Shown: one piece after another, positions 39,199 through 41,517 of the stretch
Layout of the letters: every line of letters starts with the position of its first letter
Position numbering within the stretch: the first letter of the stretch is position 1
DNA from: Chitinophagaceae bacterium
GTDB taxonomy: Bacteria > Bacteroidota > Bacteroidia > Chitinophagales > Chitinophagaceae
Length of the DNA: 64,000 nucleotides
NCBI GenBank assembly: GCA_947447825.1
Contig: CANFLL010000003.1
Span: 1-64,000 of the forward strand
Reading direction: 5' to 3'
The notes under the pieces: model-generated
What the model saw: the letters and a program-made list of their open reading frames with translations, nothing else
Database searches by the model: none
Told to the model about the DNA's origin: nothing
Position numbers and translations under genes: made by a program

Positions 39199-39441
39199 AT
39201 GTCAACACTTAAATTTGTTTTCAGTCACGATGACTTGAAAAATTTGATGGATTCTGCAGAATCGCATGAAGGAGGAAAAAAGCTAGTTCATTTTGAATTA
39301 AGTTTCGATTCTAGCAAAGGTGTGGTTGAGCCAACTTTGCACGCAACCAATTTACATAAACTTTCAAATGGCACATTGCAACCATCTGCACTTACTGCAT
39401 CAGTAAAAGGTTGTCCAAATCCACCTTGTTCTTGTTGCTAA
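39199..39441 (+). CDS. Small protein with Cys-rich C-terminal tail, first gene of a signalling unit
   Basis: An 80-residue protein with no signal peptide. The body (LKFVFSHDDLKNLMDSAE, LVHFELSFDSSKGVVEP) looks like a small alpha/beta fold. The last ten residues read GCPNPPCSCC, with cysteines at 72, 77, 79 and 80. I do not recognise a named family. Sixteen bases after its stop begins a polytopic membrane protein, then a kinase and a response regulator, all on the plus strand, so it is very probably part of that unit. The tail could bind metal, carry a modification, or be the part that is processed or sensed. All of these are hypotheses. Confidence 0.75.
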   Translation: MSTLKFVFSHDDLKNLMDSAESHEGGKKLVHFELSFDSSKGVVEPTLHATNLHKLSNGTLQPSALTASVKGCPNPPCSCC

Positions 39442-39457
39442 ATAAAGTTATTTAAAA

Positions 39458-40108
39458 TTGATTTTTCTTCTAAATAATTTAGACATCATTAGTCCCCTCT
39501 CGGTATTGGTTTATCTTTTCTATGGAAAACATAAAATTGAGGGGGCTTTTAAGTGGTTTATAGTCTTTGTAAGTGCCTTATTCTTATGTAACCTCTGTTC
39601 ATTTTTAGTTCAAACAGTGCCAACTTATTTTGGCAAAAAACCCGGAATGAATCTGTTTGTATATCATATTGGATGTTCATTTTATGTGTTATTACTCTAC
39701 AAGTTTTTTTCCTTAGTTTTAAATTCAAAATCAAGAATTCTTGATTTGATATTTTTAATTCCATTTGTTTTTCTTTCTGTTTTGAATATTCTATATCTAA
39801 ACAGAACGTTTACCATTTATGGGGTAACTTCTATATGGGTTGTTATTAAATGCTTGTCCTATTATGCACAAAAATTTCAAGAACCCCCAAAAGAAGATTT
39901 ATTAAAAAGCTGGTTATTCTGGTTTGTTTCTGGTTTGTTTTTATACTTTTCTGTAGCATTCTTTACATTCATCACTTACGATTTTTTTACTATTGGTATC
40001 ATAAAAGGAGTCTTTTCTAAGTCATTAGGCGAATTTTGGTTAGTACATAATGTAATTCTTGCTGTATCTTGCCTCTTTTATGTAAAGGCTATCAAATGCA
40101 TGGAATAA
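39458..40108 (+). CDS. Polytopic membrane protein, probable sensor partner
   Basis: A 216-residue membrane protein with six to seven hydrophobic segments (for example WFIVFVSALFLCNLCSFLV, IFLIPFVFLSVLNILYL, WLFWFVSGLFLYFSVAFFTF). Short loops dominate and there is no soluble domain. No ATG exists before residue 64, so the TTG at 39458 is the likely start, 16 bp after the previous stop. Its last codons overlap the kinase start by 13 bp, indicating translational coupling. The arrangement resembles a membrane receptor encoded apart from its kinase. I do not recognise a named family. Confidence 0.75.
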   Translation: MIFLLNNLDIISPLSVLVYLFYGKHKIEGAFKWFIVFVSALFLCNLCSFLVQTVPTYFGKKPGMNLFVYHIGCSFYVLLLYKFFSLVLNSKSRILDLIFLIPFVFLSVLNILYLNRTFTIYGVTSIWVVIKCLSYYAQKFQEPPKEDLLKSWLFWFVSGLFLYFSVAFFTFITYDFFTIGIIKGVFSKSLGEFWLVHNVILAVSCLFYVKAIKCME

Positions 40109-40863
40109 GTGGAGATATAATTATTGTGGCTGCTGGAACTCTTTTGCTGCTTTGTATATTTGGCTTTGTATTCTTTTTTGTAATAGCCTACAATAAACGA
40201 TACCGGCTATATGAAGAAGAAAAAGCTGAATTGTTACGAAAATTTGAATTAGAAAAACTTAATTCACAATTAGAAATTCAGGAACAAACCCTTAAACATA
40301 TAAGTGGAGAAATTCATGACAACATTGGTCAGATTCTTAGTTTAGTAGGGCTGCAATTGAGTACGCTCCCTACTTCAAACGAAGAAAAAAGAGAACATAC
40401 AACTGAATTGCTAAACAAAGCAATTGGCGATTTACGAAGTTTAAGTAAAAGCCTAGATACCGACAGAATTACTTCCATAGGAATTGTGGAGGCCGTAGAT
40501 TATGAATTACAATTGTTGGAAAAAACTGGAAATTATAAAACAAATCTTCAAATAGAAGGAGACTTTGAAGAACTTACCCCAGACAAAACAATCATCTTAT
40601 ACAGGATTGTGCAAGAGGTAATTAATAACATTATAAAACATGCAAAAGCAGATTCTGTAAGTATTTTCATTGGGGGCAATAAAACAGAAAGTTTTTTTAC
40701 CATTAAAGATAATGGAGTGGGTTTCATTGCTGGCGAACTAATTAATAAAGGATTGGGCTTAAAAAACATTATTAACCGAGCTTCCTTAGTGGGAGGTTCT
40801 GCAAAAATTGACAGCCTTCTGAATGAGGGAACAACAATAACTTTCAATATTCCAAAAACATAA
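40096..40863 (+). CDS. Sensor histidine kinase (HisKA_3, NarL-partner type)
   Basis: From ATG at 40096 the protein has 255 residues: one transmembrane helix (about 7-31), a coiled-coil linker, a HisKA_3 dimerisation domain with EIHDNIGQILSLVGLQL (phosphoacceptor His about 74), and a HATPase_c domain with QEVINNIIKHA, IKDNGVGF and GLGLKNI. This compact class works with LuxR-type response regulators. It has almost no extracytoplasmic sensing domain, so the polytopic protein encoded just before it probably supplies the input. The regulator gene starts 4 bp after its stop. Confidence 0.93.
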   Translation: MHGISGDIIIVAAGTLLLLCIFGFVFFFVIAYNKRYRLYEEEKAELLRKFELEKLNSQLEIQEQTLKHISGEIHDNIGQILSLVGLQLSTLPTSNEEKREHTTELLNKAIGDLRSLSKSLDTDRITSIGIVEAVDYELQLLEKTGNYKTNLQIEGDFEELTPDKTIILYRIVQEVINNIIKHAKADSVSIFIGGNKTESFFTIKDNGVGFIAGELINKGLGLKNIINRASLVGGSAKIDSLLNEGTTITFNIPKT

Positions 40864-40866
40864 TTT

Positions 40867-41517
40867 ATGTATAAAGTAGTTTTAGTAGACGATCATCCAT
40901 TACTGAGAAATGGAATAGCAAATTTAATAAACTCTTATGACGCTTTCACTGTCCTCTTCGAGGCTGATAATGGATTGGATTTTATTAAACAAGTAGATGA
41001 AAATAATCTTCCCAATCTTGTTTTATTGGACATAACAATGCCAGAAATGGATGGTTATGCAACAGCAAAATGGATAAAAGAACATCATCCACAAATTAAA
41101 ATCATTGCGTTAAGCATGATGGATGACGAGTATTCTATTATTAGAATGCTTAAAAATGGCGCAAGGGGATATGTAGTAAAAAATACAAATGCTAAGGAAC
41201 TTTTGCAAGCATTGAAAGATGTGATGGAAGTTGGTTTCTATTTCAATAATCAAATCAACAATAAAATAGCCAATTCTATCTATCATTCGGCAGAGGTAGG
41301 CAGTGATGCTTACATGCTTAGTAACGTAACAGAAAAAGAAATAGAATTACTTATTCAAGTTTGTAGCGATAAAACATACAAAGAGATAGCCGCATCCATG
41401 ACTATTAGTCCTAGAACAGTTGACAGTTATCGTGATTCTCTTTTTGAAAAGCTCAATGTAAAATCGAGGGTTGGGTTGGTAATGTTTGCCCTAAAAACAG
41501 GGTTAGTGAAATTGTAG
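40867..41517 (+). CDS. LuxR/NarL-family response regulator
   Basis: A 216-residue regulator. The receiver domain starts KVVLVDDHPLLRNGI (acidic pocket) and carries NLVLLDITMPEMDGY with the phosphoacceptor Asp near residue 55 and GYVVKN with the conserved Lys. The C-terminal HTH has KTYKEIAASMTISPRTVDSY, the recognition helix of the LuxR class. It is the cognate partner of the kinase 4 bp upstream and would control genes not identifiable here. The final nine codons form one arm of a 26-bp perfect hairpin. Confidence 0.95.
   Translation: MYKVVLVDDHPLLRNGIANLINSYDAFTVLFEADNGLDFIKQVDENNLPNLVLLDITMPEMDGYATAKWIKEHHPQIKIIALSMMDDEYSIIRMLKNGARGYVVKNTNAKELLQALKDVMEVGFYFNNQINNKIANSIYHSAEVGSDAYMLSNVTEKEIELLIQVCSDKTYKEIAASMTISPRTVDSYRDSLFEKLNVKSRVGLVMFALKTGLVKL

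Follow-up and report, generated by a model that had tools for sequence, protein, structure and literature searches.

The four genes listed first in the table, located in the window (the whole stretch of 64,000 nucleotides that was analysed), belong to a family of bacterial signalling units that is large and, it appears, undescribed. Its units combine a small protein ending in prolines and cysteines with a seven-helix membrane protein and, in most cases, a bare sensor kinase and a regulator. The explanation that accounts best for the data, and that we regard as the probable one, is a four-part chain with feedback, running from a small protein through a seven-helix membrane protein (7TM) and a histidine kinase to a response regulator. 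The small protein would be a dedicated partner and regulator of the 7TM receptor, on which it probably acts with the proline tail at its C-terminus. This receptor would in turn control the kinase, which itself lacks a sensory domain and would phosphorylate the NarL-type regulator. The regulator then probably controls its own unit, as well as a kinase-less pair of small protein and 7TM genes, through a shared DNA element, which would close a feedback loop. The data show the order of the genes, their linkage across the phylum, the seven helices of the model, the pattern of divergence and the shared element; from these we infer physical contact between the partners, the direction and sign of signalling along the chain and the binding of the element by the regulator.

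Table 1. Positions of the unit in the window and of features at related loci (locus name before the positions)
Feature	Position	Strand	Description
Small protein gene	39199..39441	+	80 aa, tail GCPNPPCSCC at codons 39409-39438
Seven-helix membrane protein (7TM) gene	39458..40108	+	216 aa, TTG start
Histidine kinase gene	40096..40863	+	255 aa, ATG start, HisKA_3 and HATPase_c (Pfam)
NarL-type response regulator gene	40867..41517	+	216 aa, Response_reg and GerE (Pfam)
Two-block cis element GTATTTTARCGG-N29-ATTNNTTNTCAA	39040..39092	+	putative binding site for the regulator of the unit
PF07484 gene	L115:5081-5617	divergent	
PF07484 gene	L135:886-1425	divergent	
PF07484 gene	L137:861-1415	divergent	
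PF07484 gene	L186:618-1169	divergent	
PF07484 gene	L192:6291-6845	divergent	
T6SS Tle1-like phospholipase domain gene	L193:4863-6203		
feoB	L096:1020-3134		
Small protein gene, apparent internal duplication	L128:1081-1830		

The order of the four genes, the 16 bp between the small protein and 7TM genes and the 13 bp overlap of the 7TM and kinase genes had been described in the original prediction and agree with the ORF coordinates; the gap between kinase and regulator, given there as 4 bp, is 3 bp (40864-40866). The TTG start of the 7TM gene is also the listed start in its closest homologue. In the kinase, the only Pfam domains above cut-offs are HisKA_3 and HATPase-type, in line with the proposal that it lacks a sensory domain; it has a single N-terminal hydrophobic helix, and its matches include UhpB and LiaS. 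The unit is flanked by gyrB-like sequence upstream, on the opposite strand, and by a DUF3109 gene downstream. Its closest relative, L048 in genome G004 of the same genus, carries these four genes in this order. Between the two units silent changes outnumber replacement changes in all four genes, with pN/pS values, obtained with synonymous change near saturation, of 0.27 for the small protein, 0.24 for the 7TM protein, 0.12 for the kinase and 0.10 for the regulator.

A single-sequence search detected the 7TM protein in 29 of 244 family genomes, and a 34-row profile, which matched open frames of 187-290 aa, detected it in 59 of 296 genomes across the phylum. Within the window's family (Chitinophagaceae) a 103-row profile found it in 52 of 60 genomes, and phylum-wide in 38 of 148, three of these 38 being doubtful (weak, short matches that lie within frames of some 800 codons). 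The highest number of copies in a genome is eight (G041). The window's genome has three, namely that of the unit and those of two loci, L046 and L096, in which a small gene accompanies the 7TM gene and no adjacent kinase or regulator was found. The 92 stretches examined, 32 from the single-sequence search and 60 from the 34-row profile search, contained 107 7TM ORFs, of which 93 were kept with an upstream small ORF (that of L053 was chosen by hand, replacing the automatic pick). For ten no candidate lay upstream: seven of them are second or third array copies, one is at the contig end of L042 and two are in L154, where there is no small ORF. Four more were left out, being two later copies in L119 and weak matches in L111 and L141. 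A kinase followed 86 of the 93 kept pairs, and a kinase and a regulator 76. In L036, L044, L104, L119 and L141, two or three 7TM genes are arrayed behind one small gene.

Searches that started from the other genes led back to the same neighbourhood. A 17-row profile of the small protein hit 52 places, spread over 40 of 296 genomes; 51 adjoin a 7TM gene and one lies at a contig edge. At 44 of them a match to the 34-row 7TM profile followed within 600 bp on the same strand; the other eight comprise six with a weaker 7TM relative downstream, the contig-edge case and L192, where a second small gene sits between the 7TM and kinase genes. Another subfamily of the small protein, searched in named genomes that include the cultured relatives Hydrotalea sandarakina DSM 23241 and Hydrotalea flava CCUG 51397, gave 70 loci, 65 of them readable (at least 1 kb downstream). 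A 7TM gene lay within 0.9 kb at 64 of these; at the last (L250), where other genes are inserted, it lay at about 2 kb. Where at least 3 kb could be read, all three partners were present in 57 of 60 loci. The small protein, which might have proved widespread on its own, was thus without a 7TM gene in 0 of 51 and 0 of 65 readable places. Nor was the kinase/regulator pair conserved with unrelated upstream genes: among the best matches of the kinase search, taken at one locus per genome, a 7TM gene lay upstream in 29 of 30, a count that is silent on weaker matches because the search also hits many other kinases (77 of 79 genomes). At the sole exception, L212, a lipid A acyltransferase gene lies upstream instead. 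The 7TM, small-protein and kinase searches recover each other's partners, and the four genes, as had been proposed, form a conserved unit.

Departures from the full arrangement bear on the chain in both directions. Small protein and 7TM genes occur without a detected kinase in L046, L096, L139 and L146, and in L123 and L141 they are followed by a PAS-type kinase in place of the HisKA_3 kinase, which fits a receptor able to couple to different kinases. The persistence of these pairs without a HisKA_3 kinase counts for the chain. The small proteins of L053, L054 and L055, which lack the tail motif, and the missing small ORF of L154 count against it. So does the absence of a fusion, no ORF in the 92 stretches matching both the 7TM and the kinase profile. 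The three loci L053 to L055 also carry two kinase-like genes in tandem.

The membrane protein, predicted from the letters to have six to seven helices, has seven in an AlphaFold2 model with a mean pLDDT of 93.5. Loops 1, 3 and 5 contain 1.98, 2.48 and 1.89 Lys/Arg per sequence and loops 2, 4 and 6 0.88, 0.63 and 0.57, which by the positive-inside rule places the N-terminus outside and the C-terminus inside (predicted); the kinase gene starts at the C-terminal end. Conservation is highest at G159, F154 and W155, which lie at the inner end of helix 6, and at N65 on the outer side. In the 103 aligned 7TM proteins no column reaches 50% for His, Cys, Asp, Glu, Lys, Arg or Ser, so that no enzyme active site is visible, and the helix-7 columns (190-210) hold Lys, the retinal-binding residue of microbial rhodopsin, in at most 15 of the 103. 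All 50 structure matches listed by the fold search are GPCRs, rhodopsins or GPCR-like proteins, with VIA Z values of up to 12.7, within the range of unrelated helical bundles, for which the tool gives about 13; the best Foldseek E value was 0.13. On this evidence the 7TM protein behaves as a receptor-like protein, and we do not claim membership of the GPCR or rhodopsin family. The role assigned to it in the original prediction, that of receptor for a kinase without a sensory domain, is likely.

By family searches, neither the 7TM protein nor the small protein falls in any Pfam or NCBIfam family; the only matches to curated families were single-member ones at E values of 0.0005-0.009, and they were rejected as chance. 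Neither 7TMR-DISM nor LytS-type 7TM domains were matched in Pfam by the 103 members, and PADLOC had no match for the six proteins tested. Pairs of small protein and 7TM genes that lack a detected kinase (L046, L096, L139, L146) could be taken to mean that the small protein is processed or exported by the 7TM protein, as AgrD is by AgrB, but none of the 14 Pfam families to which any of the 103 members matched (E <= 0.01) is AgrB, and no conserved catalytic set is visible in them, which makes such a role very unlikely.

To see which proteins pair, pairwise divergences of the four proteins were compared over 73 complete units, and partial correlations were controlled for the other two proteins. 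Along the chain they were 0.54 for small protein and 7TM, 0.23 for 7TM and kinase and 0.80 for kinase and regulator, and off the chain 0.15 for small protein and kinase, 0.05 for 7TM and regulator and −0.15 for small protein and regulator. Alignment-free distances gave 0.65, 0.21 and 0.82 for the three on-chain links. The correlation of small protein and 7TM was 0.24 after the closest 10% of pairs had been dropped and 0.25 after dereplication to 35 units (0 of 2000 permutations). In these stricter versions kinase and regulator stayed at 0.73-0.80, and 7TM and kinase fell to 0.02 and 0.09. The link to the 7TM protein was the strongest of the small protein in every version; its correlation with the kinase also exceeded all permutations in the full set. 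As the correlation holds across versions, the pairing of small protein and 7TM is supported, and the link from 7TM to kinase weakly so. The small protein diverges with the 7TM protein more than with kinase or regulator, which supports the order small protein, 7TM, kinase, regulator. The same pattern bears on the idea that the small protein is a co-transcribed, regulated target without a signalling role, as its gene's place at the head of the unit, adjoining the candidate element, might suggest. Such a target would hardly be expected to diverge with the 7TM protein and not with the regulator (partial correlation −0.15), or to stay with the 7TM gene where HisKA_3 kinase and regulator are not found, and we consider the idea extremely improbable.

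In the window's subfamily the body of the small protein is short, and in the others it is longer. One group shares the pattern GxRxYxG...LVGVD, and another (alignment A7) keeps 49-71% identity between genera over its full length. Its predicted structure (pLDDT 73, pTM 0.52) had no Foldseek match at E <= 0.001 and was set aside. Among the 93 upstream ORFs the C-terminal tail is Cys-Pro followed after one to six residues by Cys (CP-1 to 6-C) in 63, CP in 5, PP in 17 and a terminal Pro in 5, and 3 have none of these. A Cys-Pro, Pro-Pro or terminal-Pro tail is therefore present in 90 of 93, compared with 25 of the 245 neighbouring genes, a contrast somewhat inflated because the choice of upstream ORF favoured the tail motif; the profile-based searches for the small protein are free of this bias. 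The invariant Pro of alignment A3 is likewise partly a product of choice, its 63 rows having been picked by hand, mostly for clear tails. Alignment A5, in which the row for L050 was trimmed at the wrong end, was left out. In L128 the small protein seems internally duplicated, with two bodies and a tail-like end after each.

The most constant feature of the tail is proline, not cysteine, the second or both Cys being absent in many relatives, and this weakens a general metal or redox role. The four Cys within ten residues of the window's tail, and the CP-1 to 6-C motif near the end of 63 of 93 upstream ORFs, would suit a tail that binds metal or serves as a thiol redox switch in a unit sensing copper, zinc or oxidation. 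Yet 22 of the 93 tails (e.g. L138, L142, L143) keep only Pro-Pro or a terminal Pro, and the aligned 7TM proteins offer no His, Cys, Asp or Glu position at 50%; we find this role quite unlikely. The small protein is upheld as a specific companion of the 7TM protein; the function of a Cys-tail carrier of cofactor, among those first suggested for it, or of metal is not upheld as a general role. The CPxPPC tail itself, flagged for a search, does recur with the 7TM protein in its CP..C form, without being general.

A conserved end rich in proline could also stall ribosomes, the small ORF then being a translation-arrest leader that controls the 7TM gene. Pro stands near the end in 90 of 93 ORFs and is the last residue in five, and the end is kept in proteins whose N-termini differ in localisation. 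Translation arrest usually tolerates change in the peptide body, however, and here the body is a conserved domain (the identities in A7); the distances from tail to stop and from tail to 7TM gene also vary widely (8 to 529 bp). A leader function is on these grounds highly improbable.

The localisation of the small protein is the main fact that the chain leaves unexplained, and it counts against it. By eye, 16 of the 93 small ORFs carry an N-terminal lipoprotein or membrane signal, which would place them on the periplasmic side, and 77 do not; the window's protein has no hydrophobic N-terminus, and no signal peptide was seen. The topology of the 7TM protein is identical with both kinds, and one binding side could hardly serve both, unless the signal-less proteins use another export route. 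The small protein may act as a tethered modulator, as a cytoplasmic partner or as a released signal.

The two-block element upstream of the unit was found by aligning four upstream regions, those of the window unit, L048, L046 and L047, and is common to five, including that of the second 7TM gene of L047. The window's whole genome has two exact matches, one before the unit and one before the kinase-less pair L046. Across 13 genomes of the genus there are five, each before these genes, and none for the reversed-control pattern; since the pattern was drawn from the same sites, their recovery is by construction, and what carries information is that no other sites turned up. A looser search of the window's genome (3 mismatches) gave three further places, with nothing obviously related, and one reversed-control match. 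The first block looks like an inverted repeat (CCGTnTTTTnACGG in L047), which would suit a dimeric regulator binding here. The element had no match in 10 of the 13 genomes, including the 7TM-bearing G011 and G006, and is thus not a feature of the whole family.

A target operon downstream was considered and rejected, 62 of 97 first downstream neighbours lying on the opposite strand. No Pfam family is common to more than 7 of 96 downstream neighbours; the commonest neighbour is carbamoyl-phosphate synthase, beside several related units. Phage-tail-collar proteins (PF07484) are encoded divergently upstream in five loci of several families and are a possible recurrent target. In L193 the gene with the phospholipase domain follows the regulator on the same strand. 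In the window's genome feoB follows the kinase-less pair of L096, and a similar-looking frame follows such a pair in L225, a near relative.

The neighbours also bear on another reading, in which the small protein gives rise to a secreted signal, protein or peptide, and the unit serves cell-cell communication with the 7TM protein as receptor. Paralogous units, up to eight per genome, an apparent feedback element, the joint divergence of small protein and receptor and the GPCR- or rhodopsin-like helix arrangement of the model (with Z in the unrelated-bundle range) would all suit such a system. Against it, most small proteins lack an export signal, no dedicated transporter or peptidase family recurs in the 96 downstream neighbours among the 25 families listed, and conservation spans the whole body of the small protein, not the tail alone. 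We consider communication of this kind unlikely, and retain the chain in which the small protein acts as dedicated partner of the 7TM receptor.

Several known systems resemble parts of this chain. UhpC-UhpB-UhpA and LiaF-LiaS-LiaR contain intramembrane-sensing kinases with a separate membrane sensor or modulator. They share with the window unit a kinase without a sensory domain, a regulator of NarL/LuxR type and a separate membrane protein; the partner here differs in having seven helices, no Pfam match and a dedicated small protein. Two features of a split sensor were found, the kinase without sensory domain and the separate membrane gene beside it (29 of 30 loci); a third, control of the kinase by the membrane protein, is predicted by the chain. 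In agr, four genes encode a small protein, a membrane protein, a kinase and a regulator; the membrane protein AgrB is a peptidase, AgrC combines receptor and kinase, and AgrA is of the LytTR type. The two systems thus have the same four kinds of component, but the parallel with agr drawn in the original prediction does not hold further: there is no AgrB match, the window's regulator is Response_reg plus GerE and not LytTR, and receptor and kinase are separate genes. An agr-like precursor would also need a Cys to form its thiolactone peptide, and the tail Cys is missing in many relatives. For agr quorum sensing see PMC10891604.

In 7TMR-DISM kinases and the LytS-type BtsS (PMC10653868), seven-helix receptor and kinase are fused in one chain. 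The seven helices, here those of the AlphaFold2 model, and a receptor that would control a histidine kinase are common to both, whereas the window unit has separate genes. In DbfQ-DbfS-DbfR of Vibrio cholerae, a small protein encoded beside a two-component system has been shown to act on its kinase; DbfQ is a periplasmic protein that binds the sensory domain of the kinase itself (PMC12714742). The window's small protein is likewise encoded beside a two-component system, but most of its relatives have no signal peptide, and the 7TM protein stands between small protein and kinase. No description of small-protein/7TM/kinase units was found in the full-text literature, where coverage of subscription journals is thin. 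What appears to be new is a two-component system whose seven-helix receptor is split from the kinase and accompanied by a cognate small protein.

In a wider and more doubtful reading, which we put forward tentatively, Bacteroidota would possess, across the phylum, a paralogous family of cognate small-protein ligands and GPCR-like receptors, each with its own bare kinase and regulator and with feedback on the ligand and receptor genes, as a Gram-negative form of protein-pheromone signalling or self-sensing. Many Bacteroidota genomes hold one to eight units, and both upstream proteins are without a Pfam or NCBIfam family name. If the four-part chain is correct, it would provide a receptor and a candidate partner for kinases that look sensorless, and the tail would offer a simple handle for testing how a histidine kinase is driven by a seven-helix protein that is not part of it.
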